From a virus: DNA of 22,627 bases. A program made the position numbers and the translations under genes. The notes below the pieces were generated by a model. That model had not been told where the DNA came from. It saw only the letters and a list, made by a program, of their open reading frames with translations, and searched no databases. Positions 107 to 21,542 of the stretch are shown here, piece after piece. Where the stretch lies: positions 1-22,627 of the IMG/VR virus record IMGVR_UViG_3300013233_000650. One strand, 5' to 3'. Within the stretch, counting starts at the first letter, position 1; each line of letters begins with the position of its first letter.

Positions 107-3100
107 ATGGCAAAATGGACAAATTATTTTAAAATTGTAACCCCATCACCTGAATCGGTTCGCATGACGAACAGTCAAGAAATGGCAGATGGTGGTGCAT
201 ATAATAACTATACATGGTACCAACGATTAGTTCAGGGTTCCGCTTCACGAATGACAAGATATCGTGAATACGATCTCATGGATAATGATGTGGAAGTAGC
301 GAGAGCATTAGACACGATTGCCGAGGAAATGACAGGCAATAATCCAAAAACAAACGACCCACTAGAGCTTGATATATTAACAGAAGATGAGAACCATGTT
401 AAAAGTTCATCAGTGTTAACAATAAAGGCTGCACTACGCAAGTGGGGAATGCTACATGATTGGGAAAACAAACTATTCACAGTATCTCGTATGCTTATCA
501 AGTATGGTGATGTTTACTTTAGAAAGCCAAAGAATATTCATGACAAATGGACATTCATCCACCCAAAAAATGTAGTTGCGGCTATTGTATCAGAAACAGA
601 CGCTACGAAGGTAGTTGGGTGGCAAATAAAGAACGACATCAAAAAACCACACTCTGGTGGAACATCACTTAATCTTGGTCCTGTTTCTAACGCATCATCT
701 CAGGAACAGACAGAAGTTGTTGATGCTTTGGATATTGTTCGTTTTACCTTAAATGATGATATGTCAGATACTGCTCCATTTGGTGAATCTGTGCTGCGTT
801 CAGTATACCGCTCTCATAAACAAAAAGAATTGTTGGAAGATGCAATCATCATATATCGTGTACAACGTGCACCAGAACGCCGTGTGTTTTATATTGATGT
901 TGGAAAGATGCCACCACAACGAGTTAAAGCTCATTTAGAAGGCATCAAAAATGAAATCAAACAAAAGAAAGTTCCAACCAGCAATGGTGGAGCAGCAGAA
1001 GTAGATTCAGTATATAATCCACAATCTATGTGTTTATCATTGGATACTGAAATTCCTTTGTTGGATGGTCGCACAGTTGAATTATCAACCCTTATCAGCG
1101 AACATGAAGAAGGCAAAGAGAATTGGGTATACAGTATTGATCCCAAGTCAGGTGATGTTGTGCCTGGACCAATTAGTTGGGCAGGAATCACACAAACAAA
1201 TGCTGAAACTATTAAGCTTATTCTGGATAATGGTGAAGAAATCGTATGCACACCGGAACACAAATTTCCTATTCAAGGGCATGGTGTTGTAGAAGCAAAA
1301 GATATCACTCCGGAAATGAGCCTGTGGCCATATGCAGTAACAGAAGACCACCTAACAACCCCAACAGGAAAAACAACATCAAAATATAGAAAAATTTACA
1401 ATCCTTCCACAAAATCCTGGAAATTAGTACATCGGTTAGTGGCTAATTATATGAAATCATTAGGGTTTGATAATGAAATGGTTCATGATGATCGATATAA
1501 ACACGAACAAAAACGCACTATCCACCACAAGAATTTCAACGGATTAAACAATTCTCCTGATAATTTAGCATTCATGCACCATATTGATCATGTTAATTAC
1601 CACAAATCACTAAAAAACCAAGAAGCTGTTTTTCCTGAAAAAATGATTAGCCGTTTCATTGCTATAGCTAATGGGAATATCTTTGTCAAATTTAAAGATT
1701 TAATGGAAACATTAAACACTGATGAAGTATTCATGGATGCATATTATCAATCAAACAAAGTACAAACAGAAAGAAACTACAAATTGAAACTGGGTCAATT
1801 CAGACAAAAAATGTTTCTTAAATTTATAAAAGAAGTTGGATTTAAAAATTGGAAAGAATACCAACAAAGTGTTATCCAGGCGCGCATTAACATAGATACA
1901 ACAGTGTCCAAAAGCACAATACACACCAATGATGATATTAAGTTAATTCAACATGTATTGGGGTTAATCAAAACTAAGGGAATTCATAACTTTAAATTGG
2001 TGAATCACTTAAAAGACCACAAACGTGAATGGAATGTTTTACGATCTCTATATAGCAAATCCAACATTGGGATTAATTCAGAATCATTAAACACTCCAGA
2101 AGCATCAATGTTCGAAAGAATTTCAAAATATTTCGGATATGGTAACTTTAAACATATGGTATCGGAAGCATATTCTTTCAATCACCGTGTTGTTAGAATA
2201 GAAAAAGGTGCCAATCAAAACGTCGGAACATTGACAATTGACCAAGCCGAAAAGTGCCATAATTTCCATAATTTCGCTTTAAAATCAGGGGTTTACACAA
2301 ACAACAGCGAAGATTTTTTCTTCGCTAGTAGGCCCGATGGGCGTGGTTCTAGAGTTGAAACATTGCCAGGTGGCTGTCTAGCAATGGATACTAAAATTCC
2401 ATTGCTTGATGGTAGAACATTATCATTGACTGATATCACATCAGAATACAATGAAGGCAAAGAACTCTGGGCGTACAGCACAAACCCACAAACTGGTGAA
2501 ATTGTTCCTGGTAAAATTGATTGGGCTGGTATAACACACGCAAGTGCTGATGTTATGGAAATCGTATTGGATAATGGAGAGAAAATAACCTGCACGCCAG
2601 ACCACAAATTCCCTATATGGGGTAAAGGTTTCATGCGCGCAGATGAAATCACATCTGATGATAGCTTCATGCATTTCGAAACAAGAGAGGAAAGCGTCTC
2701 TACTAAGCCAGACGGCAAGAAGTATACTCAAGTATATGATCATTCAACAAAGAAATGGGAATTCGTTCACCGCACTGTACGTAAGTTCATGGATGATAAC
2801 AATGAAGTGAATGAATTGTTGTTTGAAGATGATGAGTGTAAACATGAAATCATACACCATGCAAATGTGAACAGATTTGATAACACTCCATCTAATTTAG
2901 CTTGGATGGGCAGGGTAGATCATTTTAAACTGCATGGAACATTAGGGAAACACGCAAGCTCTAAACGATTAGAAAAACAAAATAACGATCCTGTGTGGAA
3001 AGCCGCTGTGTACAAAAAAAGTGGAGACTCTTTACGTAAACGATTAGCAGAAGATAGTGAGTTGTTGAATGCACGCAAAGCTGTTTTCGCTGAAAAAATA

Positions 3101-4507
3101 CAATTTGCTCCAGATAACGCTAAATTAACGTTTAGCCCTGATATGTTAACCATAGTCAGATATTTATTTGATGAGGGAACTATACAACAGGCTCCGTTAG
3201 TTGCTCTGTTAAATGACACACCAGAATTTATGGATTTGTGGAATATTCTGAATATCCAACAACAACCATTAACAAATTATGAAGAAAAAATAGTTGGAAT
3301 TAATCGAATTACTGAACATTTTCAGCGCCATCATTTAGATTTATTACTAAAAGAATACGGTTATGATACATGGTCAACGTTCAAATTAGACAGATTGACT
3401 CAGGTTGATTCTTCTAAATTGGATGGATATTGTTCCGACAATTCACTGTCGAAATTAAAAACAACGTTAATGAAAAAGATAATCAAATTAACTACAACAC
3501 ATTATAAGCCATTTCATTTAATATCGTATCTAAACGAAAACGTATCTAAGTGGGATGACTTGGTAAAATTGTATAACGAAATCTGCACACCAAAACACCG
3601 ACTACGAAATGGAAAAATTAGATATCACCACTTCGATCGGTTAGTAGAAGTTCTTGGGTTTTCTGACTATAACGATTTTCTTTCGAAGAAAGCACTATTC
3701 AATCATAAGATTGTGTCAGTGACTAAATTGGAAGGAAATATTCCGGTAGGAACACTAACAATTGACCAAAAAGAACAATTTCATTCGTTCCATACATTCG
3801 CATTAGACGTGGGAATATTCACGAAGAATAGTGGATTGGGGGAATTGTCAGATTTATCGTACTTCCAGCAAAAAGTGTGGAGAGGATTAAGAGTTCCGGC
3901 CTCGTATATGCTAGAACAAGCTGATGGTGGAGCTATGTTTAGTGATGGTAAAGTAGGAACAGCATATATCCAAGAATTACGATTTGCATTATTTGTTGGT
4001 CGCTTGCAAGGATACATCGAAAAGACATTAGATGAAGAATTCAAGAAGTACATCCGAGCTGCTGGTATCAATATCGATCCACATATGTATCGTATACGTA
4101 CTCCAGAACCTTCCAACTTTGGTAAATATCGCCAGTATGAATTAGATTCAGCATTACTTAGCTCATTTGGCTCAGCAGATGGTATCCAATACTTATCTAA
4201 GCGATTCATTCTTGAAAAGTATCTTATGTTATCAGATGAAGAGATTATTCGTAATGAACGTCTTAAACGTGAAGAAGTTGCTATTGATACTGATGGCGGC
4301 AAAGAAGATTACCCAACTATATATGGTGATGGACAAGGCGGTGATGGTATGGGCGGAATCGGCGGCGGTGGCGGTGGATTGGGCGCTATGGGTGGAGGTT
4401 TAGGTGGTGTTGATATGGACATGGAAGCTGGCGGTGAAGATGCTGGTGGAATGGAAGATGCACCGGCCGATCCCAACGCAGAAGCAGCAGCTGGGGCCAC
4501 CTCGTAG
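107..4507 (+). CDS. 20: Portal vertex protein (gp20-like) precursor with two inteins
   Basis: Portal of the prohead: the dodecameric ring at one head vertex through which DNA is packaged and to which the neck binds. The frame encodes 1466 residues, but residues 309-733 and 757-1241 are inteins. The spliced protein would be about 556 residues, close to T4 gp20 (524). Extein 1 (1-308) carries the typical portal N-terminal region. Extein 2 (734-756, SEDFFF...ETLPGG) matches the portal stretch that in T4-type proteins reads EDYW...DTLPG. Extein 3 (1242-1466) begins SGLGELSDLSYFQQKVW and includes the RVPASYM segment. The C-terminus is a Gly-rich and acidic tail (about 1405-1466). Position directly before core, protease, scaffold and capsid genes matches T4 order. 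The Shine-Dalgarno site is weak (CTGGTAAT). Protein splicing is inferred from motifs; unspliced, the portal would be unlikely to work. Confidence 0.93.
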   Translation: MAKWTNYFKIVTPSPESVRMTNSQEMADGGAYNNYTWYQRLVQGSASRMTRYREYDLMDNDVEVARALDTIAEEMTGNNPKTNDPLELDILTEDENHVKSSSVLTIKAALRKWGMLHDWENKLFTVSRMLIKYGDVYFRKPKNIHDKWTFIHPKNVVAAIVSETDATKVVGWQIKNDIKKPHSGGTSLNLGPVSNASSQEQTEVVDALDIVRFTLNDDMSDTAPFGESVLRSVYRSHKQKELLEDAIIIYRVQRAPERRVFYIDVGKMPPQRVKAHLEGIKNEIKQKKVPTSNGGAAEVDSVYNPQSMCLSLDTEIPLLDGRTVELSTLISEHEEGKENWVYSIDPKSGDVVPGPISWAGITQTNAETIKLILDNGEEIVCTPEHKFPIQGHGVVEAKDITPEMSLWPYAVTEDHLTTPTGKTTSKYRKIYNPSTKSWKLVHRLVANYMKSLGFDNEMVHDDRYKHEQKRTIHHKNFNGLNNSPDNLAFMHHIDHVNYHKSLKNQEAVFPEKMISRFIAIANGNIFVKFKDLMETLNTDEVFMDAYYQSNKVQTERNYKLKLGQFRQKMFLKFIKEVGFKNWKEYQQSVIQARINIDTTVSKSTIHTNDDIKLIQHVLGLIKTKGIHNFKLVNHLKDHKREWNVLRSLYSKSNIGINSESLNTPEASMFERISKYFGYGNFKHMVSEAYSFNHRVVRIEKGANQNVGTLTIDQAEKCHNFHNFALKSGVYTNNSEDFFFASRPDGRGSRVETLPGGCLAMDTKIPLLDGRTLSLTDITSEYNEGKELWAYSTNPQTGEIVPGKIDWAGITHASADVMEIVLDNGEKITCTPDHKFPIWGKGFMRADEITSDDSFMHFETREESVSTKPDGKKYTQVYDHSTKKWEFVHRTVRKFMDDNNEVNELLFEDDECKHEIIHHANVNRFDNTPSNLAWMGRVDHFKLHGTLGKHASSKRLEKQNNDPVWKAAVYKKSGDSLRKRLAEDSELLNARKAVFAEKIQFAPDNAKLTFSPDMLTIVRYLFDEGTIQQAPLVALLNDTPEFMDLWNILNIQQQPLTNYEEKIVGINRITEHFQRHHLDLLLKEYGYDTWSTFKLDRLTQVDSSKLDGYCSDNSLSKLKTTLMKKIIKLTTTHYKPFHLISYLNENVSKWDDLVKLYNEICTPKHRLRNGKIRYHHFDRLVEVLGFSDYNDFLSKKALFNHKIVSVTKLEGNIPVGTLTIDQKEQFHSFHTFALDVGIFTKNSGLGELSDLSYFQQKVWRGLRVPASYMLEQADGGAMFSDGKVGTAYIQELRFALFVGRLQGYIEKTLDEEFKKYIRAAGINIDPHMYRIRTPEPSNFGKYRQYELDSALLSSFGSADGIQYLSKRFILEKYLMLSDEEIIRNERLKREEVAIDTDGGKEDYPTIYGDGQGGDGMGGIGGGGGGLGAMGGGLGGVDMDMEAGGEDAGGMEDAPADPNAEAAAGATS
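1031..2305 (+). mobile_element. Intein 1 in the portal gene (425 aa, HNH endonuclease type)
   Basis: Self-splicing protein element at portal residues 309-733. It starts with Cys1 (CLSLDTEIPLLDGRT, block A), has block B CTPEHKF at intein residues 73-79 with the TxxH motif, and ends with block F/G (GTLTID, then HNFALKSGVYTNN) followed by Ser+1. Between the splicing blocks lies an HNH homing endonuclease domain: HRLVANYM at about 134-141 and IHHKNFNGLNNSPDNL at 164-179. After it come Lys-rich helical segments that may contact DNA. The residue before the terminal Asn is Asn rather than the usual His. The edges are set by Cys1 and Asn-Ser and agree with continuous portal sequence on both sides. 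Confidence 0.9.
2375..3829 (+). mobile_element. Intein 2 in the portal gene (485 aa, HNH endonuclease type)
   Basis: Second intein, portal residues 757-1241, inserted just after the extein motif ETLPGG. Cys1 opens block A (CLAMDTKIPLLDGRT), block B is CTPDHKF, and block G is FHTFALDVGIFTKN followed by Ser+1. The HNH region is HRTVRKFM (about 132-139) then IIHHANVNRFDNTPSNL (159-175). Compared with intein 1 the motif has NRFDN in place of NGLNN, and the following segment has lost one His pair. Hand alignment gives 48 identities in the first 81 residues with intein 1, with no gaps, so the two are close relatives. The C-terminal half has two further Lys-rich helical modules (about 320-460). The penultimate residue is Lys, not His. 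Confidence 0.9.
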
Positions 4508-4728: not shown

Positions 4729-5124
4729 ATGGCCAAGAAGAATTCAAACAACAAACACATTCGCACTATGGTAGAATCACTTATCAAAGGTGATTCTGAT
4801 GCGGCTGGCACAGCACTTCATTCATACTTACGAAGCAAAACCAACAAATTAATTTTGGGTGAAGCAGACAAAGAAGATGAGTGTGATGACTGTGGAAAAT
4901 CTCCATGTGCATGTGATGACGAATCAAAGGACGATAAGAAGGACAAGAAGTCTGATAAGAAGGACAAGAAGTCTGATAAGAAGGACAAGAAGTCTGACAA
5001 GGAAGATAAAGACAAGGACGATAAGAAGGATGACGAATCCGACGATGACAAGAAACCTGAAAAAGGCAAGAAAGGTGTAAACCCATTTGCCAAGAAAGAC
5101 GACAAAGACTCTGACGACGAATAA
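4729..5124 (+). CDS. Acidic/lysine-rich prohead core protein (gp67/gp68-like)
   Basis: Encodes 131 residues. Residues 11-40 form a helical head related to the preceding 55-aa protein. LILGE at 41-45 fits the Leu/Ile-X-Glu cleavage signal of T4-type prohead proteases, with cleavage predicted after Glu45. A Cys cluster follows (Cys52, Cys55, Cys60, Cys62; CxxCx4CxC), possibly metal-binding, which I do not know from T4 core proteins. The rest (64-131) is an extremely charged Lys/Asp tail including three exact DKKDKKS repeats at 69-89. T4 gp67 is likewise highly charged and is cut to internal peptides in the head. GAGGAA at 4715-4720 is the ribosome binding site and overlaps the end of the previous gene, so the two are likely translated from one message. 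Exact equivalence to 67 or 68 is unclear. Confidence 0.78.
   Translation: MAKKNSNNKHIRTMVESLIKGDSDAAGTALHSYLRSKTNKLILGEADKEDECDDCGKSPCACDDESKDDKKDKKSDKKDKKSDKKDKKSDKEDKDKDDKKDDESDDDKKPEKGKKGVNPFAKKDDKDSDDE
4933..4995 (+). repeat. Three exact tandem copies of a 21-bp unit
   Basis: The unit GATAAGAAGGACAAGAAGTC plus a final T occurs at 4933-4953, 4954-4974 and 4975-4995 and encodes DKKDKKS three times. Codon-for-codon identity points to recent slippage or unequal recombination, so copy number may vary between related phages. Confidence 0.95.
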
Positions 5125-5141
5125 CACGGAACGTTAAATTG

Positions 5142-5185
5142 ATGCATCCAGATATTTTATTTGGATGCATTTCTCTTTTATTCTA
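5142..5185 (+). terminator. Hairpin terminator after the core genes
   Basis: A 9-bp perfect stem (ATGCATCCA at 5142-5150, TGGATGCAT at 5162-5170) with an 11-base loop is followed by the T-rich TTCTCTTTTATTCT. It lies 17 bases after the core gene stop and 8 bases beyond the stop of the convergent endonuclease gene. The T tract favours plus-strand termination; the hairpin may also protect the 3' end of the minus-strand message. Confidence 0.7.
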
Positions 5186-6896
5186 ACACCCACCTTTGCA
5201 ATCCACAATTGAATATTCTAAACCAGTTGTTATTGATTGTGTTTTCCAATTCTGTTTTTGATTGATCATATCCATCCCCCAGTATATTTCTTAAATTCTT
5301 ATGCCTGAAGTTGAACTTGTGAATTCTAGTTTGATTTGATGTATTAACATAACTATAATCAGGTGGCAATACTTTATCCAGAACCCAGTTATTGGTTGCA
5401 TATACATTACCATTACTCCAACGCAGATCAGCGAAACTAACTATTTTTGACCACTCATTTGAACTCTTGAAGTGAGCTAGTAATTTACCAAACCCACCAG
5501 GAACTCGCCCAAGTGTTGCGTATCGGTTAAGACAATGTTGCCCTTTTTGTTTAATAAATCCCATCACAGCAACAAGCGATCCGCCATGCATTAATCCCAC
5601 ATTAATAGAACTAGGGCCATTACCTTGTATATGGTTATCGTCGAAGAACTGCTGCTTTGTTTTACTGTCAACATCAACAATGCTGCATTTCCTTGCGTAT
5701 GTAACCGCTGTTTTATCTAATCCCAAAATATTTAATATTTTACTTCTCACTATGCTTTCTTTGTGAATCCACTCATCCTCAAAGATTGTGATCAATCTAA
5801 TCCCAAGGGCGTTACACAAATCCAACTTTGTCTTGTGGTAATTTTTTGAAATATTCCCTCTAGCTGAACTGTGCCAATATAATCCACAATATTCAATAGC
5901 TACATTGTGGGATGGTATGTATATATCAATCTCTAGTGGAGCTATAATGTGCCTAGAGTTTGTGATGTATGTGATATCATGATCATCCAACAATGCACAT
6001 AATTGGCGTTCTGGATAACTAACAGGATGTCGTATTCGTGACATTCCGACCATCTTCATATAATTACCAACAGTCTCTTTATCCACATTTAACATTCTAG
6101 CTATTTCGGTGGTTGGTATTTTATTGGTGATGTGTTGAGTGTATAACCATTCCTTGTCGTTCAATTTATCCATAACATCTGTAGGTATGTGGGAATTACT
6201 CCAACTTTCACTGTCATACTTGAGCAGTGTAGTTTCCTTCCTTTTTTCCATTGATGCTGGGTGGTGCACACTATGTTCAGACCCATATTTCTCAATCATA
6301 GTAACTTTTCGTTTTGCCTTAAACTCACTAGTTTCGGTATACTTATCGGTTCCGAATTTCTGTCGTTTGATATCCTTTACCATATCCGATGCCAATACAT
6401 TGATGTGTCCATATTTTTCTAAATTAGTATTTCTGCGTTTATCTAATATGTGTTGTGATTCTTCGGTAGATCGATTTTCTACAGTAATTCTCCGTTTTTC
6501 ATTTGCATCTTCCGTCATTGATCTATTCGGTCGGTTTTTAAACTCATCAGTTTTACTGAACGATGAAACCCCATAATGCTGCATGCATGTATTCGCCTTC
6601 TTTTGGTGCACATCCTTGTGGTTGCTTCCACAGGCAGATGAACAGAATTCTGCGTACTTTGACGGCTTATACGTTGTTATCCATTTCACCACATTATCAC
6701 AACTCTTGCATTTTGGAATCTCATGAGTGTCAGTCATTACGTGGTACAACATACACGCAGCTGTCGCACCATCAGGTAGAAAATCTGTATACTTACGCAA
6801 CTTATAATATATTGGTTTTTTCCACCTTGTCAAGTTCGCAGTAGTTTTTTTGGTGCTATAATAAACAGCCAATTCGATTAAATCTGTTGGGTACAT
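5178..6896 (-). CDS. Free-standing homing-type endonuclease with GNAT-like C-terminal domain
   Basis: A 572-aa protein from the chosen start. Visible parts, in order: a Cys4 finger (CKSC at 63-66, CSSAC at 85-89); a series of degenerate EKYG-type repeats (about 95-230), typical of phage homing enzymes and probably DNA-binding; a helix-turn-helix (PTTEIARMLNVDKETVGNYM, about 261-280); a Vsr/EDxHD-like nuclease core (EIDIYIP at 322-328, AIEYCGLYWH at 333-342, then FEDEW at about 372); and a GNAT-like domain (about 408-517) with GRVPGGFGKLL and SFADLRWSNGNVY. The open frame runs up to an ATG at 6995, but that codon lies inside a promoter -10 box. The ATG at 6896 has AAAGGA at 6903-6908, six bases upstream, so I prefer it. 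It is antisense between core and protease genes, as expected for a mobile intruder. Target site unknown. Confidence 0.82.
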   Translation of the reverse strand: MYPTDLIELAVYYSTKKTTANLTRWKKPIYYKLRKYTDFLPDGATAACMLYHVMTDTHEIPKCKSCDNVVKWITTYKPSKYAEFCSSACGSNHKDVHQKKANTCMQHYGVSSFSKTDEFKNRPNRSMTEDANEKRRITVENRSTEESQHILDKRRNTNLEKYGHINVLASDMVKDIKRQKFGTDKYTETSEFKAKRKVTMIEKYGSEHSVHHPASMEKRKETTLLKYDSESWSNSHIPTDVMDKLNDKEWLYTQHITNKIPTTEIARMLNVDKETVGNYMKMVGMSRIRHPVSYPERQLCALLDDHDITYITNSRHIIAPLEIDIYIPSHNVAIEYCGLYWHSSARGNISKNYHKTKLDLCNALGIRLITIFEDEWIHKESIVRSKILNILGLDKTAVTYARKCSIVDVDSKTKQQFFDDNHIQGNGPSSINVGLMHGGSLVAVMGFIKQKGQHCLNRYATLGRVPGGFGKLLAHFKSSNEWSKIVSFADLRWSNGNVYATNNWVLDKVLPPDYSYVNTSNQTRIHKFNFRHKNLRNILGDGYDQSKTELENTINNNWFRIFNCGLQRWVLE

Positions 6897-6902
6897 TCGG
6901 TG

Positions 6903-6908
6903 TCCTTT
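6903..6908 (-). promoter_or_regulatory. Ribosome binding site that decides the endonuclease start
   Basis: AAAGGA on the minus strand, six bases before the ATG at 6896-6894. The alternative in-frame starts at 6995, 6977 and 6926 have no comparable purine-rich site in front of them. Confidence 0.6.
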
Positions 6909-6974
6909 CGTTTTGGTGTTTTTCATTAACCAGTATGGAACTAGAGCCTTTTTGTTGTCCTTGACCACTAACCC

Positions 6975-6982
6975 CATAAATA
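6975..6982 (+). promoter_or_regulatory. Candidate late promoter box (CATAAATA) for the prohead protease
   Basis: CATAAATA lies 28 bases before the protease ATG, with AAGGA at 6999-7003 between them, so the predicted transcript keeps its ribosome binding site. It is one base from the T4 late consensus. Confidence 0.55.
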
Positions 6983-6993
6983 GAAATAAACTC

Positions 6994-7022
6994 ATTATAA
7001 GGAACTACAAATGAAAAATCAA
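6994..7022 (-). promoter_or_regulatory. Sigma70-type promoter for the endonuclease, antisense to the protease start
   Basis: Minus strand: -35 TTGATT (7017-7022), 17-base spacer, -10 TATAAT (6994-6999). The start of transcription would be near 6987, giving a leader of about 90 bases before the preferred ATG at 6896. The -35 box lies in the first codons of the protease gene and the -10 box overlaps its leader. Confidence 0.6.
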
Positions 7023-10711: not shown

Positions 10712-12748
10712 ATGACAGCTAAACTAACAATAACAGAAATATTATCACGACTTGAATCACGCAACATCACAACCGGAATACCAATTCAGTTATATCCAAT
10801 TTCCCAACCATACGTATCCCAGAATGCCCCATTGCAATTTAAATGTCAATATAACCATAAATGGATGGGCAACGTCAATAACACAATAACACTACTGAGG
10901 GGATGTCCGGACTGTAAAAAAATAAACGAGCGAGAAAATAAGCGAATTCCATTTGCAACATTATTACAACAATTTAACAAACATTTTCCGTTGTTTACAT
11001 ATGATGAAAGCTCATACACCAATGCTACTACCCAAATGATAGGTAGGTGTCCAGATCATGGCAAGTTTGATATTATTCCTAGATTGCATGCATTGGGAAA
11101 ACAGGATTGTCCTGATTGTACAGAGATCAAAAGACAACAACTATGGGTAGAGACATTTAAGATAAAAGCCAGTAAAAAACATGGCGGATTTTATACATAC
11201 GATGATGTAGTGTGCGGTAAGCCTCACATTGGAGTGCTAATCACGTGTCCAACACATGGAACATTTAGCCAGCGTCCTGGTGATCATTTACGTGGTCATG
11301 GATGTAAGGCTTGTGTGAACGGTTCAGTATCCCGTAAACAGATATTTTGGACAATGCAGGTTGCAGAACGCGACAATATAACGATTGAACATGCTGGAAA
11401 CGTCGGGGAGTATTTAATACCAGGAACAAGGTTCAAAGCTGATGGGTTCTGTCGAGATACCAATACAGTATATGAATTTCATGGTGATGCATTCCATGGC
11501 AATCCAGAATTATTTAAACCATCTGATAAATGTCACCCATTTGATAAAAATATAACAGCTGGTGAATTATTGCTAACAACAAAGAAGAAAGAAGATACAA
11601 TACGACAAGCTGGATTCAATTTAGTTGTTATGTGGGAACATGACTTCAATAAATTGTATCCTGATTTTACTCCATCGATGGTAACAATTCCATTACTGGG
11701 AACTACGTTGAATTACAATCGTGACATTCCACATGATGAGTTGAAAGCAATACATATAGTATTAAAAGATAAAAAATTTAAAGGATTTAGACATAATCAT
11801 AATTATATTTGCAAACTGTGTGGAAATGGGTTTATATCAACACTAACTCAACGCAAACAAGCATTTAGAAAATATAATGCAACTGGATGTCCCAAGTGTT
11901 CATCTCGGTCATTATCGAATAATGACATACTAGTTGAAATACAAGAAACTGTTGGAGGTACAATCACTAACAATATACTACACATGACTGATACTATCGC
12001 TGTAATGATACAGGGATTGCAGGAAAATAGCAAATATAGTTCAACAAGATTGCAACAATATCACACTGATATTGGAATCCAGTTAATAATAATATTCATG
12101 GATGAGTGGATCAACAACAATCAGTTAATATTGGATAAGTTGATGCATTATAGTGGACATAACTATTATAAACAGATATACGGAAGAAAATGTACAATCC
12201 ACAAAATAACAGGCAAGGAAAAATCAAAGTTCCTCAATGACCACCACGTTCAGGGAAATGATGCTGCCATGATGAGCTATGGCGCTTTCCATGAAGATGA
12301 ATTGGTTGCGGTAATGACGTTTACCAAACCACGTGTCGCCCTTGGATATAAGGACAAGGACAGAACAAAATACGATCTAACGTGGGAACTCAGCAGATTT
12401 GCAACCAATACCAAATATCGAGTGCCAGGAATCGCATCCAAATTGCTGGCCCATTTTAAACGAACCAATCAATGGAATACCATTATTAGTTATGCTGATA
12501 GACGGTGGAGCGTTGGCAATATGTATGATAAATTGGGCTTTGTGTTAACCGTAAAGAACCCACCCAACTACCACTACATCATTGACGGCAAACGGAAACA
12601 CAGATGGAATTTTAGAAAGGATATATTGAAAAATACATTGCCTCACTATGATAAACAGCTCACCGAATACCAAAATATGCAAAATGATGGTAAATGGAGA
12701 GTGTGGGATTGTGGAACGTTACGTTATGTTCTTGAGAGACCGCAGTAG
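10712..12748 (+). CDS. Chimeric homing-type endonuclease with zinc ribbons, two nuclease-like domains and a GNAT-like domain
   Basis: A 678-aa protein. Three zinc-ribbon units open it: Cys45/65/68, Cys113/133/136 and Cys179/198/201, each ending in a CPxC-like or CxxC pair with a His nearby. Then comes a Vsr/EDxHD-like nuclease, FKADGFC (241-247), VYEFHGDAFHGN (253-264) and MWEHDF (307-312), a pattern common in T4-like phage endonucleases. A fourth ribbon (CKLC 367-370, CPKC 393-396) follows. Residues about 405-490 align with the nuclease domain of the other two free-standing enzymes (GIQLIIIFMDEWI matches GIRLITIFEDEWI), but the catalytic stretch IEYCGLYWH has become VMIQGLQEN, so this copy looks dead. 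The GNAT-like domain is at about 497-622 (YRVPGIASKLL, SYADRRWSVGNMYDKLGF). It lies between the capsid terminator and a convergent gene two bases away. Its ribosome binding site is weak. Confidence 0.82.
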   Translation: MTAKLTITEILSRLESRNITTGIPIQLYPISQPYVSQNAPLQFKCQYNHKWMGNVNNTITLLRGCPDCKKINERENKRIPFATLLQQFNKHFPLFTYDESSYTNATTQMIGRCPDHGKFDIIPRLHALGKQDCPDCTEIKRQQLWVETFKIKASKKHGGFYTYDDVVCGKPHIGVLITCPTHGTFSQRPGDHLRGHGCKACVNGSVSRKQIFWTMQVAERDNITIEHAGNVGEYLIPGTRFKADGFCRDTNTVYEFHGDAFHGNPELFKPSDKCHPFDKNITAGELLLTTKKKEDTIRQAGFNLVVMWEHDFNKLYPDFTPSMVTIPLLGTTLNYNRDIPHDELKAIHIVLKDKKFKGFRHNHNYICKLCGNGFISTLTQRKQAFRKYNATGCPKCSSRSLSNNDILVEIQETVGGTITNNILHMTDTIAVMIQGLQENSKYSSTRLQQYHTDIGIQLIIIFMDEWINNNQLILDKLMHYSGHNYYKQIYGRKCTIHKITGKEKSKFLNDHHVQGNDAAMMSYGAFHEDELVAVMTFTKPRVALGYKDKDRTKYDLTWELSRFATNTKYRVPGIASKLLAHFKRTNQWNTIISYADRRWSVGNMYDKLGFVLTVKNPPNYHYIIDGKRKHRWNFRKDILKNTLPHYDKQLTEYQNMQNDGKWRVWDCGTLRYVLERPQ

Positions 12749-14106: not shown

Positions 14107-17100
14107 ATGTCAACTTTCAAAGCGCCAGGTGATGCACCATTTCAGATTAAATCAGAAGGTGAAACCATTTCAATCTCATTCAAGGAAGGATTACCAACAA
14201 CAGGCCAAGGCTTAGTTGAATGGAATATTCCTGCACCAGCCAGAGGATGTGCTGAAGGAAATGTTGGAGCGTATTGTGGCTTTGTGGTTTTAATAAGTGA
14301 TAAACCTCTACAACCAAAACACTCTCCAGTTAATGGCAATTATTATACTCCAGATAACACTGCAAACTCAGATGTTCACGCTGGTGATAATATCAATGGC
14401 GCTAATGTGGTGGGAGCCTTCTATGAAGGAACTTCCATTAACCAAGGAAATGAGCCAACAACATCTTTTGTTATAAACGATATTCTCCCGAATACCCCCT
14501 ATTATGTTGCTGGTTATGCAGTTGATTGTCAAGGACGGTATCATACAGATGGTGTACGTGCATATTCTGCAGATTACGGAACAGTGGAAGCTGCGGGAAC
14601 ATCCAGCAATCAAATTATTAAATTAAACAGTGGAGATGGTGTATTACCTACCGATGGAACTTTCCTTGTTCCTGGAATGAACTATGGGTTTGATATTGAA
14701 ATAAATTCAACATTTCCAGAAGCAGCTGGCCGTCGAGTAGTAAGAACAATCATTGATGGTATTAATGCAAGCACATACGAAGCTATGGTTAATGAAATAA
14801 ACAAATCATTATCACTTGCACAACAACCAATGCAATCTCCCGTACCTCCAAATACTGATCGATATTACTGGGATGGTACATCATTATTTCAGTTTGATGG
14901 GACATCCAATCAACCATTATCTGCGATTTTGGAAACAGCTGATCCTGGTGCTCCATCTATTGGTGATTATTGGTTTAATGGAACTACTCTGCGCATGTGG
15001 GGAATTCCATTAGCGTCTCAATGGAATGATATAGATTATGTTAAATATAATGAATCACCAACAACATTAACTGCTGGTGATGATTATTGGTTTGATGGGA
15101 CTAATGGATATAAAAGATGTGGAGCTACCTGGTGCCAGGAAGTATTATACAATCAAATAATTGATCCTTTATTGCCAGCTGTTATAGATGATTGTGGTAA
15201 TTATTGGTTTGATACTGCATCATCCACTTTAAACCACAGAAATATAGAAACAAATAACTGGGACGTTGAATACGCTATAACATGGGATGTTAGCCCAAAT
15301 GCCATCATAGATGGATCGTATTGGTTTGATATTGACACTGATAAATTATATATTCGTGATACTGGTGCATGGGTAGAGATCCTACCATCTGCGGATGTTA
15401 CATTGTCGACAGACTTGCGGGTATTGATATCTGACGTTATTCCTGATGTTCCCGTTGAAAATTTATATTGGTACAATCCAACAACAGAAGAATTATCACT
15501 ATACAACACAACAACATTGGTATTTGATCCCACCACACTTTTAGTGTGGACTGGAGATCCAACCGATACAAAATCGTGTGATTTGTGGTGGGATTCTGTA
15601 AGTGATTCACTATTTAAATGGGACATTGTTCACTTAGAATGGGACGCAGTAACTTCTTTTGTTCAACAAGAAACTGATCCTTTATCTGCCCCGATCATAA
15701 ACATAGATGAATTGTGGTACGTATCAACAACAAATACCATGTCCCGTTTTGATGGGACAGCTTGGAGAGACGTTACATTCCTCAATAACCCAACTGACCC
15801 TGCTATTCCTGTCGCACAAACTGGTTGGTGGAATGATGTTACAAACAAATGGTACATATGGGATACTCCAATCGCAAGTCAGTGGAATGTAATTGATCCA
15901 ACTGTATCTCCTATAGATCCAAATGCAGTACCACCATCAACTCTATGGTTCAATACAGCAACAACAGCGTTATATGAACGTGTTGGAGCTTCATGGGTTG
16001 CTCTGCCTTTTTCTACTGTTGAATTTGCTCAACCGGTTGGAACGTTATGGTTCAACAACGCAACAAATGAGTTATTTGAATGGAATGGAAATTCCTGGAT
16101 CACATCAACACCTCTCGTTGTTGCAAGTCTAAACAATGATGGTGACTTAATGTTTGAAACAACATTTACTGGGACAGGAGCCTTTTTAATGGTTCTAGTT
16201 CCATTTGCTGCCAATTCCCAAGCGAATCCAAGCGAATTAGCAACAGGTGTTGCAGGTCACGACTTCTTTAATTATGGTATTTTTGATTACGTATCAACTA
16301 CATCCTCAACTGTTGATCGCGAATCATTCCTATTTGATAACTTACCACGAGCATTCGTTCAGAAGCAAACATATGGAACTGATGGGGTAGATGACGTTCC
16401 TAGTTACGATATGATAGGAGTTGGAGATGATGGATCACCTGATGAGCGTAGAAATCTAGCTGATCGTATCATGCAACAATTGGGATATCCAACTGTCGAT
16501 GTTGAGATTACTCCAAGCCAATTAAACATTGCAATTGATTTAGCATTAAGTGAACTGAGAGAAAGATCATCAGCAGCATATACCCGAGGTTTCTTTTTCT
16601 TGGATGTCGAACCACACAAACAAAGCTATCAATTAACAGACAAAACTGTTGGATTTAATACAGTAGTTACTGTAATGGGAGCAACACGAATGACTTCAGC
16701 ATTTTTAAGTGGTGCTAATGGTGGTGGTGTGTATGGTCAAGTTGTATTACAGCAATTGTATAATATGGGATCATTTGATTTATTAAGCTTTCACCTTATA
16801 TCCCAATATATTGAACAAATGGAAATGTTGTTCGCTACTCGATTGACTTACCATTGGGATGAATCATCAAGAACTTTAGATCTTCATAATTCTTTTTATA
16901 CACGAGAACGCATATTATTAGACGTTACAGTAGAGAGAACTGAACAAGATATACTAAAAGATCGTTGGACACGTAACTGGATTGAGCGATATTCACTAGC
17001 AGAAACAATGAGAATATTGGCACAAGTTCGTGGTAAGTATGCATCATTACCAGGAGCTGGTGGTGGAATTGCACTGAATGCTGGTGAATTGATGGCTCAA

Positions 17101-17199
17101 CATGACCAAATGAAAATGGAATTATTACAAGAAATTGATGATTACGTGGTTAATGATATTGAAGACATTGGCCAAGGCGCACAATTAGTTATTGGATAA
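14107..17199 (+). CDS. 13: Giant neck protein: Trp/Phe-repeat appendage region fused to a gp13-like domain
   Basis: A 1030-aa protein. Residues 1-160 look like a beta-sandwich, fibronectin type III-like unit (ILPNTPYYVAGYAVDCQGRY). From about 250 to 670 come eleven copies of a ~40-residue repeat with the core YWF(D/N)...T..L(Y/F).W.G..W, for example at 284 (DYWFNGTTLRMWG), 402 (SYWFDIDTDKLY) and 644 (TLWFNNATNELFEWNGNSW). From about 765 to the end is a domain like T4-type gp13: LADRIMQQLGYPTVDVEITPSQLNIAIDLAL, then QSYQLTDKTVGFNTVV, and RYSLAETMRILAQVRGKY. In T4 gp13 (about 309 aa) helps close the filled head, and the whisker gene wac precedes gene 13. Here the upstream part may be a neck appendage fused to gp13. 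AGGAG at 14094-14098 is the ribosome binding site. The gp13 call rests on the C-terminal domain only. Confidence 0.8.
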   Translation: MSTFKAPGDAPFQIKSEGETISISFKEGLPTTGQGLVEWNIPAPARGCAEGNVGAYCGFVVLISDKPLQPKHSPVNGNYYTPDNTANSDVHAGDNINGANVVGAFYEGTSINQGNEPTTSFVINDILPNTPYYVAGYAVDCQGRYHTDGVRAYSADYGTVEAAGTSSNQIIKLNSGDGVLPTDGTFLVPGMNYGFDIEINSTFPEAAGRRVVRTIIDGINASTYEAMVNEINKSLSLAQQPMQSPVPPNTDRYYWDGTSLFQFDGTSNQPLSAILETADPGAPSIGDYWFNGTTLRMWGIPLASQWNDIDYVKYNESPTTLTAGDDYWFDGTNGYKRCGATWCQEVLYNQIIDPLLPAVIDDCGNYWFDTASSTLNHRNIETNNWDVEYAITWDVSPNAIIDGSYWFDIDTDKLYIRDTGAWVEILPSADVTLSTDLRVLISDVIPDVPVENLYWYNPTTEELSLYNTTTLVFDPTTLLVWTGDPTDTKSCDLWWDSVSDSLFKWDIVHLEWDAVTSFVQQETDPLSAPIINIDELWYVSTTNTMSRFDGTAWRDVTFLNNPTDPAIPVAQTGWWNDVTNKWYIWDTPIASQWNVIDPTVSPIDPNAVPPSTLWFNTATTALYERVGASWVALPFSTVEFAQPVGTLWFNNATNELFEWNGNSWITSTPLVVASLNNDGDLMFETTFTGTGAFLMVLVPFAANSQANPSELATGVAGHDFFNYGIFDYVSTTSSTVDRESFLFDNLPRAFVQKQTYGTDGVDDVPSYDMIGVGDDGSPDERRNLADRIMQQLGYPTVDVEITPSQLNIAIDLALSELRERSSAAYTRGFFFLDVEPHKQSYQLTDKTVGFNTVVTVMGATRMTSAFLSGANGGGVYGQVVLQQLYNMGSFDLLSFHLISQYIEQMEMLFATRLTYHWDESSRTLDLHNSFYTRERILLDVTVERTEQDILKDRWTRNWIERYSLAETMRILAQVRGKYASLPGAGGGIALNAGELMAQHDQMKMELLQEIDDYVVNDIEDIGQGAQLVIG
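14860..16110 (+). repeat. Eleven diverged ~40-residue Trp/Phe repeats inside the neck protein gene
   Basis: YW or LW cores are spaced 90-140 bases apart, starting near 14863, 14959, 15077, 15197, 15314, 15458, 15578, 15707, 15823, 15938 and 16039. Each unit is a DP..P..G linker, a [YLW]W[FYW] core and a closing W. The DNA is diverged while the protein pattern is kept, so this is an old and selected repeat array. Confidence 0.8.
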
Positions 17200-18906: not shown

Positions 18907-19689
18907 ATGTCAGAGATATCAACGTATTATTACGATGGACAAATGAAGAGATATTTGGTTCAGTTTATGGCAATATTTGGTGATATGCAAATATCTGTAG
19001 GCAAAAATGCAGATTTATCTGAACGATTGGTGAAAGTTCCAATTTACGGAGCAAGCAAGGATCGAGTGGTAGCAGCTATAAAAAGCGAAAACACACAGAA
19101 TGCCCCTGTTAGATTACCAGCAATGAGTGCTTGGATGGCAACAATAGATCAAGCCCCAGAATCAAGAAAAGGAATAGGTGCTGTTCGTAGAAAAACATAC
19201 ATGCCAACTGGTGGGGTATTTCCCGATGATATTGGTGTTGTTGAACAACGTATGCCTGTTCCGTATAAATCTCAATTTGAGTTGACAATATGGACTAGCA
19301 ATACTAGCCAAATGCAACAAATACTTGAACAGATAATGATGCTATTCAATCCATCAATTCAAATACAGACAAGTGACGAGCCGTATGATTGGCAGAAATT
19401 AACAACGGTGGAGTTAGTAGACATACAACCAGAAGAAAATATTGAACCAGGAAATGATCGTAGAGTGTCCAGATATGTATTACGGTTTGAGATTCCTTTC
19501 TGGATTGGAGTTCCTGCAAAAGTTCATAACGACTTTGTATCAAAAATATACACTAGAGTGTCGGCAGTATCGGATGCTACACAAAGCTCTGATGCATTTT
19601 TGGCAGACTTAAATGATACTGACCAAGTACCAGAACTTGTGTTTGATTTAGATGGAGCCACAATAAACCTCGGACTCACTATACCTTAA
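18907..19689 (+). CDS. 15: Tail terminator / proximal sheath stabiliser (gp15-like)
   Basis: Caps the finished tail tube and sheath and joins the tail to the head. The 260 residues are near the T4 gp15 length (272). Like T4 gp15 it starts with YYYDGQMKRYLVQFMAIFGDMQI (T4: YFYNSSFRRYATLMGDLFSNIQI), followed by RLVKVPIYGASKDR, then MPVPYKSQFELTIWTSNTSQMQQILEQIMMLFNP and RRVSRYVLRFEIPFWIG, all with clear T4 counterparts. The ATG at 18907 is chosen over an upstream in-frame start at 18871 because GAGGAA (18894-18899) lies 7 bases before it and the upstream start would overlap the previous gene. Its stop codon overlaps the stop of the convergent endonuclease. Confidence 0.92.
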   Translation: MSEISTYYYDGQMKRYLVQFMAIFGDMQISVGKNADLSERLVKVPIYGASKDRVVAAIKSENTQNAPVRLPAMSAWMATIDQAPESRKGIGAVRRKTYMPTGGVFPDDIGVVEQRMPVPYKSQFELTIWTSNTSQMQQILEQIMMLFNPSIQIQTSDEPYDWQKLTTVELVDIQPEENIEPGNDRRVSRYVLRFEIPFWIGVPAKVHNDFVSKIYTRVSAVSDATQSSDAFLADLNDTDQVPELVFDLDGATINLGLTIP

Positions 19690-21542
19690 TCATCAGTAAT
19701 GATGTTTTCATTTTCCCATTTGAAAACATCATTACCACAATCCCAAATTCTATCATATCCATCTCGTTGCATATTCTGCCACTCTGTCATTTCTGGTGAA
19801 AACATTGCCAGAACCTTTTCCAATTTGTGCTTTTGAAATTTAACACGGTGGAATAATTGTTGAGTGTTTGTTGGCCTGAAATAGTAATAATTAGGCTTTG
19901 CTTGGTGCATAAACGTAAATCCTAACTTGCTGTATAACCCACCAGTGTTCCATCTTCTATCACTATACGTTACTATGGATGCTGGATCTTTCATTCGTGT
20001 GAAGTGAGAAAATAACCGAGACGCTCCACCAACAACGTTAGTGAGTAAATCATTGGAATATCTTATTAATTCCCATTCATATTTCTTCGAAAACCTGGAC
20101 TTGCTGAATGACATTGCAGCAACCAACTTCCCTTCATATTCTAATCCATATCCAACACTAGCAGTTGCACTTCCCTGTATGTGTGTTTTATTGAAAAACT
20201 TACTACTGTCAGTGAAGTTCAATACCACGATTTTTGTCTTGCGAGCATATATTACTTTATTGACGCCCAACATAGATGAAATACGCGACTTCACAATCTC
20301 TTGTTTGTTGTTCCATTCAGTGTCTGTGATTTGTACCAATCTAACACCTTTAGCAGCACAATCAATTAATTTGTTTAAATGATACCTACGTTCCTTTCCT
20401 TGATTCTCCCCATGCCAATATACTCCATTATACTCAAACGCTAGCTTAAACGAAGGTAAGTACACATCAACCTCCTTGGGAGAAATTAAATCTCTGGTAT
20501 TTGTAATCACATTTTCTGTTGGAATTAACTGCTTGATGTAATCAGCCATGTCTCGTTCTCCTTGTGAAGAACTATTGAATATTGGATCAATACCATGGTG
20601 CTTCATTCTGTCACCGACAACACTATCTGATATGCCCAGTTCTGCAGCAATCCGTTGAAAGGTTTTCTGTTGTGATATATGTTGATCCAACATCCAATCT
20701 TTATTGTCAATATTCAACAGTGCTTGTGGATCCATTTTTGCTTGGTGTGGGTTGGATACTGGTGGACTGTCCTCACCCAAATAACGATCAGCTGTTGTCC
20801 TTAGCATCTTCGTTAGTAATTCCTTTTTTTGTATTGGGTATTCCACTCCATGTGCATCCAACATGCCATCTTTTCGTAGTCGCTGTCCGTGTTCAGAACC
20901 AAAGATATTCTCATGGCCATACTTCTCCAAATTGGTTTGCTTGATTTTATCACGAACCTCTTTACTCTTGAGTGGATTGTCAACACCATATTTTTCAATT
21001 AGAGTTGCTTTCGCTTTATTTCTTATATCCTCATTGTCCAGTGGGTTCTCATGGCCATACTTCTCCAAATTGGTTTGCTTGATTTTATCACGAACCTCTT
21101 TACTCTTGAGTGAGTTATCAACACCATATTTTTCCATCATTAAATCCTTTGTTTTCTGTTTCACATCCGCCCGTTGCAGCACGTTTGCAACACCATGTTT
21201 TTTCATATTGGTTTGTCTTCTTTTTTCTTTAATTGTGTCATCAGCAGCAATGCATTTTGAACTACAAAATGTAGGAAACGTATATATGTATTTTCCATCC
21301 AGGCGCATTTTAACTGCAGTGTTGCATTGGGAACATGTTGGCTGTTGGGTTATATCCTTTAGTATGCAATGAAGCCTTGCTTTGATTGGCGCTGAGTATT
21401 GCAAAAATATAGTATAATCTAGTATCATCTGAATCAATTCTGGCAATTTATTCAGCTTCGATTGGAATCTGATGTTTAGAGAATTGTCGGTATTTATTAT
21501 TAAATATTGTTTTAATATTCTAGTGATTTGGGTTTTTGTCAT
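19686..21542 (-). CDS. Free-standing homing-type endonuclease with GNAT-like C-terminal domain
   Basis: A 618-aa protein, same architecture as the enzyme at 5178-6896. A Cys4 finger (Cys70, Cys73, Cys93, Cys97) is followed by five ~23-residue repeats with the core KIKQTNLEKYGHEN (about 105-215), probably DNA-binding. Then a helix-turn-helix (FQRIAAELGISDSVVGDRM, about 295-313), a Vsr/EDxHD-like nuclease core (KEVDVYLP at 356-363, AFEYNGVYWHGEN at 368-380, TDTEW at 406-410) and a GNAT-like domain (about 436-554; NVVGGASRLFSHF, YSDRRWNTGGLYSKLGF). AAGGAT at 21548-21553 is the ribosome binding site. It is antisense between the tail terminator and sheath genes, and its stop overlaps the gp15 stop by three bases. 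All expected nuclease residues are present, so it looks active. Confidence 0.83.
   Translation of the reverse strand: MTKTQITRILKQYLIINTDNSLNIRFQSKLNKLPELIQMILDYTIFLQYSAPIKARLHCILKDITQQPTCSQCNTAVKMRLDGKYIYTFPTFCSSKCIAADDTIKEKRRQTNMKKHGVANVLQRADVKQKTKDLMMEKYGVDNSLKSKEVRDKIKQTNLEKYGHENPLDNEDIRNKAKATLIEKYGVDNPLKSKEVRDKIKQTNLEKYGHENIFGSEHGQRLRKDGMLDAHGVEYPIQKKELLTKMLRTTADRYLGEDSPPVSNPHQAKMDPQALLNIDNKDWMLDQHISQQKTFQRIAAELGISDSVVGDRMKHHGIDPIFNSSSQGERDMADYIKQLIPTENVITNTRDLISPKEVDVYLPSFKLAFEYNGVYWHGENQGKERRYHLNKLIDCAAKGVRLVQITDTEWNNKQEIVKSRISSMLGVNKVIYARKTKIVVLNFTDSSKFFNKTHIQGSATASVGYGLEYEGKLVAAMSFSKSRFSKKYEWELIRYSNDLLTNVVGGASRLFSHFTRMKDPASIVTYSDRRWNTGGLYSKLGFTFMHQAKPNYYYFRPTNTQQLFHRVKFQKHKLEKVLAMFSPEMTEWQNMQRDGYDRIWDCGNDVFKWENENIITDD
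19696..19735. repeat. Perfect 14-bp hairpin at the convergent gp15/endonuclease junction
   Basis: GTAATGATGTTTTC (19696-19709) pairs with GAAAACATCATTAC (19722-19735) across a 12-base loop. It begins 7 bases after the gp15 stop and lies within the last codons of the endonuclease. No T tract follows on either strand, so it is not a standard intrinsic terminator. It could protect the 3' end of the late message or mark a site recognised by the element. Confidence 0.75.
20908..21112. repeat. 67-bp exact direct repeat from a 138-bp internal duplication
   Basis: Positions 20908-20974 and 21046-21112 are identical over 67 bases and are offset by 138 bases (46 codons, two 23-residue units). Similarity continues past 20974/21112 with a few changes. 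It lies in the EKYG repeat region of the endonuclease and indicates recent in-frame duplication. Confidence 0.92.

Follow-up and report, generated by a model that had tools for sequence, protein, structure and literature searches.

Two predicted HNH inteins 23 residues apart in a T4-type phage portal gene, and related inteins at neighbouring portal sites

We found that the T4-type portal gene of an uncultivated virus contains two complete in-frame HNH inteins, 425 and 485 amino acids long. The gene lies in a 22,627 bp virus record classed as linear (the window; we use this word for the whole stretch of DNA analysed). Records classed as linear are often fragments. We put at roughly 90% the probability that these are two self-excising, class-1-type inteins of a portal HNH family, gained one after another at neighbouring sites. 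Both inteins would cut themselves out of a 1466-residue precursor and the flanks would rejoin, leaving a 556-residue portal. The HNH enzyme of an intein would presumably cut an intein-free copy of its own site, and repair would copy the intein in. The family's landing points appear to recur within 44 codons, those for the channel loop and the last part of the clip. A gene with one intein could then be invaded at a neighbouring site, and pairs and triplets would build up sequentially.

The portal gene is a single open frame of 1466 codons at 107-4507 (+ strand, as are all parts of the gene described below). The Portal_T4 model (PF07230) matched across its exteins (9.4e-79) and, among solved structures, the exteins matched T4 gp20. 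Extein 1 (107-1030; residues 1-308 of both precursor and spliced protein) was placed by PF07230, a portal HMM and alignment to intein-free portals, and comprises the N-terminal part, wing, first stem helix and clip start. Extein 2 (SEDFFFASRPDGRGSRVETLPGG; 2306-2374) has only 23 residues (precursor 734-756) and was placed by alignment to T4 gp20 (6uzc). Extein 3 (3830-4507; precursor 1242-1466, spliced residues 332-556), placed by the portal HMM and alignment, contains the second stem helix, tunnel loop, wing and crown and ends with the stop codon at 4505-4507.

Removing both inteins leaves exactly 556 residues. The spliced protein is 52% identical to the portal of XacN1 and 49% identical to that of Stenotrophomonas phage CM1. 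It aligned without a gap at either junction to these two and to more distant jumbo-phage portals; the intein-free portals aligned in this way also included those of Atu_ph07, Callisto and SCTP-2. The same was true of the closest empty relative found (locus L010; 60% identity), in which the junctions read YNPQQM/SED and LPGG/QGLGEL (slashes mark insertion points). The portal HMM stepped from 332 to 333 and from 355 to 355 over the two inserts, and the excess was exactly 425 and 485 residues. At the base composition of the window, the chance of a 910-codon open frame is ~1e-31. A preliminary description of this DNA had proposed that its T4-type portal gene contains two complete HNH inteins, that the three exteins should align to T4-type portals without gaps, and that both inteins must splice out to leave a normal portal of ~556 residues. 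Our analysis supports all three points, and every coordinate and length it gave was exact.

Intein 1 (1031-2305; precursor 309-733) lies between YNPQSM and SEDFFF, and intein 2 (2375-3829; precursor 757-1241) between LPGG and SGLGEL. Both were delimited with PF14890, TIGR01445 and AlphaFold models. The Intein_splicing model (PF14890) spans both, and the intein_Nterm model TIGR01445 scored 39.1 bits for intein 1 and 39.6 bits for intein 2 (NCBIfam cut-off, 24.5). In intein 1, the N-terminal Hint half (1031-1345) has Cys1 and the block B motif TPEH, with C1, T74 and H77 invariant among 40 family members. The HNH core, from IHHKNFNGLNNSPDNL to DHVNYH (1418-1606), was recognized by PHROG HNH matches and contains H165, H166, N174, H187 and H191, all nearly invariant in the family. 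The C-terminal Hint half (2165-2305), with predicted Hint strands, ends in TNN followed by Ser, and its Asn425 is invariant. Intein 2 has the corresponding parts: an N-terminal Hint half with Cys1 and TPDH (2375-2689; family alignment), an HNH core from IHHANVNRFDNTPSNL to DHFKLH (2756-2938; HNH_3, PF13392, E 0.0073) and a C-terminal Hint half (3689-3829) ending in TKN followed by Ser, with an invariant terminal Asn485. The near-invariant residues of the family HNH motif are present in both inteins.

Each insert is predicted to form a full Hint domain, from its first residue to its last, around an HNH-bearing insert. The AlphaFold models (pLDDT 84 for intein 1 and 79 for intein 2) superimposed on the NrdJ-1 intein (8ubs) with Z 21.8 and rmsd 1.5 for intein 1, and Z 21.1 and rmsd 1.6 for intein 2 (142 residues aligned in each case). 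Cys1, the block B Thr-x-x-His, the terminal Asn and a Ser at +1 are class-1 features, and both inteins have them. Splicing and HNH cleavage are predicted for both inteins. The penultimate His is absent, replaced by Asn in intein 1 and Lys in intein 2. This His is frequent in inteins and does not define them; another residue in its place can slow Asn cyclisation.

The second insertion site is occupied by many members of a large family of related inteins. We searched for DNA encoding LPGG directly followed by the start of an intein, which led to portal genes, and used 13 such inteins as profile seeds. A profile scan then gave the best 80 loci, some of them contigs obtained before (loci carry L numbers here). 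After removal of identical copies the family has at least 90 distinct inteins, including the two in the window. Among the loci listed, all strong N-terminal family matches were in portal genes, except in SP-15 and GXN1, which had been obtained earlier as distant tblastn matches. A scan of genome_contigs with a different pattern gave two matches, both portals. Thus, in the collections searched, HNH inteins of one large family live in T4-type portal genes and are apparently portal-specific, a term that covers the nearest relatives only, with portal inteins as the seeds and the best 80 loci considered.

Nearly all of the inteins listed fall within 44 residues of the spliced portal (292-335, clip domain and channel loop), at eight points: 292, 295/296, 306, 308, 317, 331, 332 and 335. 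An additional intein, in L006, is at 374. Positions that our script had given as 311, 334 and 339, and two of three rows at 332, were reassigned by their flanks to 306 or 331. Among the inteins listed, the first window site (308, YNPQSM/SED) is occupied in the window only, and the second (331, LPGG/S) by ~50 distinct inteins. For each window intein alone, IMG/VR exact-peptide scans found no close relative, and in tblastn against 50,697 phage records the only matches were distant.

The residue at +1 was Ser in 89 of 90 listed inteins and Thr in the other. At LPGG, Ser was at +1 in ~49/50 occupied genes and in only 5/137 empty genes, and L010 has Gln; the near universality of Ser when the site is occupied and its scarcity when empty therefore mark a splicing requirement. 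Many empty LPGG genes have Thr at this position, and Thr could play the part as well. Site 306 has a native Ser in 138/140 empty genes, which may be why that site is popular. We considered whether insertion itself changes the +1 residue to Ser. This fits LPGG/S and fails at site 308, where L010 already has Ser.

Some of the listed inteins have only 148-170 residues; these mini-inteins leave no room for an HNH domain, and the homing cycle predicts such forms. The Hint domain of the family is under strong purifying selection (dN/dS 0.04-0.07 in all seven computable pairs); the endonuclease part is looser (0.07-0.43). These data bear on whether the window inteins still splice. The non-His penultimate residue of both might indicate that one or both inserts no longer do so, and that the portal is dead, unspliced or cleaved. 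However, such a residue is the rule in the family (Lys in 60/90 and His in 5/90 of the inteins listed), yet the Hint domain is strongly conserved by selection. In addition, both window inteins are intact in frame, Cys1, TxxH, terminal Asn and Ser +1, and the neighbouring head genes look intact. We consider loss of splicing very improbable.

Two unusual portal inteins were noted in passing. One, in L199/L200 (portal frame residues ~301-714), belongs to the family described here and does not have the usual first Cys (APMPVWKNTPIPLLDG), has a Cys in the block F region (VYCMTV) and ends in KN followed by Thr; possibly it splices by a non-class-1 mechanism or is inactive. The other is an upstream LAGLIDADG-like intein in the stem region of L167/L190, read by eye, which is present besides an HNH-type intein at LPGA.

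In T4 gp20 numbering, counted from the alignment, intein 1 lies between M330 and T331 and intein 2 between A353 and D354, in the channel loop. The clip domain of T4 gp20 is 279-358, with R338 and K342 in an inner clip loop and a channel loop at 350-359 (PMC4493910). From these limits and the junction positions, the 23-residue middle extein runs from the clip end through the inner clip loop into the first part of the channel loop. That it is conserved portal sequence, as had been proposed, held up: it corresponds to T4 gp20 residues 331-353.

The arrangement itself is less exceptional than first described, since this stretch holds two or three inteins in about a dozen other uncultivated phages, many inteins share the LPGG/S site, and portal inteins were already known in cluster C1 mycobacteriophages (PMC5050341). 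Two-intein portals were listed at L093, L104/L118/L184, L111, L147, L151, L181, L186, L194 and L199/L200, and three-intein portals at L105, L097 and L120, the last two cut at the contig start. In some relatives the middle extein is as short as 11 or 14 residues. An automatic tally of the listed loci gave 76 single, 12 double and 2 triple, and is approximate because some loci are one contig obtained twice.

Occupancy is rare overall. We drew a sample of portals by the motif KQKELLED, which is unrelated to inteins. Of 77 classifiable portals, 76 were empty and one contained an intein. In contrast, 6 of 17 distinct portals picked solely by an intein at LPGG (LPGG/C) held another just upstream. 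The difference (Fisher p 9.5e-5) is between overlapping, non-identical groups of portals, which makes the excess an indication and not an exact figure.

A sister site gives a view of how a second intein may arrive. L147 has inteins at 317 and 331, whereas L146 and L148 have one at 331 only. The contigs are near-identical and, by their names, come from different metagenomes. The two flanking blocks of L147 and L146 were 99.4-99.75% identical and the frames, minus the extra intein, 99.5%; the extra intein at site 317 is exactly 1,125 bp. Of the 16 differences between L147 and L146, five fall in the 64 bp upstream of this intein (binomial p 1.1e-5, for a stretch picked post hoc). The closest intein to that of L147 at site 317 is the one in L111 (1121/1125, 99.6%), although the portal DNA around the two inteins is only ~75% identical (upstream extein). 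The three L147 differences nearest the junction agree with L111, giving 24 identical bases beside the intein; those at -52 and -64 disagree.

The simplest reading is that an intein homed recently into a gene in which site 331 was already occupied, and that a short stretch of flank was converted with it. Loss of the intein from L146 and L148 is less likely, because the loss would have to be exact and the match to L111 would be left unexplained. Near-identical phages with and without the second intein show that occupancy can change readily, a point to set beside the earlier suggestion that the conserved middle extein may guard both window inteins against deletion. The footprint lies at site 317, where the window has no intein, and not at 308 or 331; for the two window sites we found no pair of empty and occupied alleles. 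The window's own two inteins probably arrived sequentially. Separately, L108/L158, L129 and L151 have exteins ~95% identical, but the inteins that occupy their shared LPGG site differ markedly, with identity between the L129 intein and those of L151 and L158 down to 39-40%, which indicates turnover or replacement of inteins there.

The position of the window inteins might also indicate a control on portal production or motor docking, by timed or conditional splicing, rather than mere passengers. The inteins interrupt the part of the portal that in T4 contains the channel loop and the inner clip loop, and therefore an unspliced subunit could form no normal clip. Conditional splicing is known in other inteins, for example two in mycobacterial DnaB (PMC6195587). 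However, occupancy as rare as 1/77, and variable between near-identical phages, is what passengers would give, and we regard such a control as improbable.

We also considered whether the window inteins are copies of one another, one having been pasted 23 codons away in the same gene. Their homology spans the full length (32% identity, E 2e-76), with 68% DNA identity over the first 242 bp. FastTree joined them with support 0.75, and as sisters they were neither supported nor rejected by an AU test (p 0.56). However, a free search under a better (mixture) model placed them apart, on long branches, although a constrained tree later scored slightly higher. Each is nearer to inteins of other phages than to its partner: intein 1 is nearest overall to the site-306 intein of L120 (43%), and intein 2 to those at site 331 in L107 and L112 (37%). 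Sites other than 331 mostly form their own clades. This pattern favours site-specific homing from outside, and we think duplication within the gene unlikely. FastTree similarly grouped the two inteins of L093, giving the look of local duplication; neither that grouping nor the window's was upheld by the free mixture-model tree.

In the mixture-model tree, sites 306, 292, 317 and 296 formed one clade each and 331 was spread. The site labels needed 10 changes (the least possible), compared to 34 in shuffles. This fits a lineage that would rarely change site. Sequential gain is our preferred reading for the pair. The chances are about even for a fuller history, in which a portal-specific lineage radiated between neighbouring codons, occupied genes stood open to the next site, and the intein at 308 was acquired separately.

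The closest parallel is the inteins a-d of haloarchaeal MCM, which also occupy neighbouring sites in one conserved gene, are often co-occupied and are mobile at two sites (PMC10643990). The authors of that study find that the alleles invaded by double inteins had for the most part one intein already, and the L146/L147 pair fits this. Unlike MCM, an archaeal replicative helicase, the portal is a virion protein, and its HNH family uses eight points in 44 residues with up to three inteins at once. Cluster C1 mycobacteriophages share with the window an intein-bearing portal gene; tblastn of the window inteins against the phage collection at E 1e-3 matched no mycobacteriophage record. TerL of crAss-like phages has two in-frame inteins in one packaging gene (PMC7886860), there the terminase and here the portal. 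The nearest named model is RtcB-family intein 2 (NF052663), from another host gene, which matched full-length at 86.8 bits (intein 1) and 79.4 bits (intein 2), far under a whole-protein cut-off that includes RtcB.

A T4-type portal with three in-frame inteins is also present in L006 (LR756508.1, 2027-6187), from an uncultured 484-kb phage. Two are 13 residues apart in the vicinity of the stem, near PFGK and LLEDA, and have no strong match to the portal intein family profile. The third, at spliced residue 374 and 43 residues further on than the second window site, is homologous to the window inteins (33% identity, E 7e-25).

In the open-licence literature we found no description of inteins in T4-type gp20 or of what appears to be a wider multi-intein portal pattern. 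It is set apart by one homologous family, seemingly confined to one virion protein and caught with and without a second copy. It offers a natural system for how inteins change site and whether neighbours help or hinder homing, and raises the question of how a motor ring of 12 subunits copes when its protein must be spliced two or three times. Tightly spaced inteins with 11-14-residue exteins between them may serve as splicing tools, and intein-bearing portals can easily be annotated wrongly, as fragments or as novel proteins.

The rest of the window is a T4-type head module, with prohead protease, major head protein, head-tail adaptor and sheath-related proteins in addition to the portal. Three large free-standing homing-endonuclease-like genes interrupt it, at 5178-6995 (- strand; PHROG 3339 and DUF7487), 10712-12748 (+ strand; PHROG 559) and 19686-21542 (- strand; DUF7487). 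The product of the second gene resembles Mom-like DNA modification proteins at its C-terminus and, weakly, GNAT acetyltransferases. Between the portal and the first of these genes, 4729-5124 (+ strand) encodes a 131-residue, Lys/Asp-rich repetitive protein with no PHROG match, whose position suggests a head-core protein. The 1030-residue homolog of head-tail adaptor Ad2 (phrog_211) at 14107-17199 (+ strand) has YWFD/WYNPTT-like motifs that recur in the middle of the protein.
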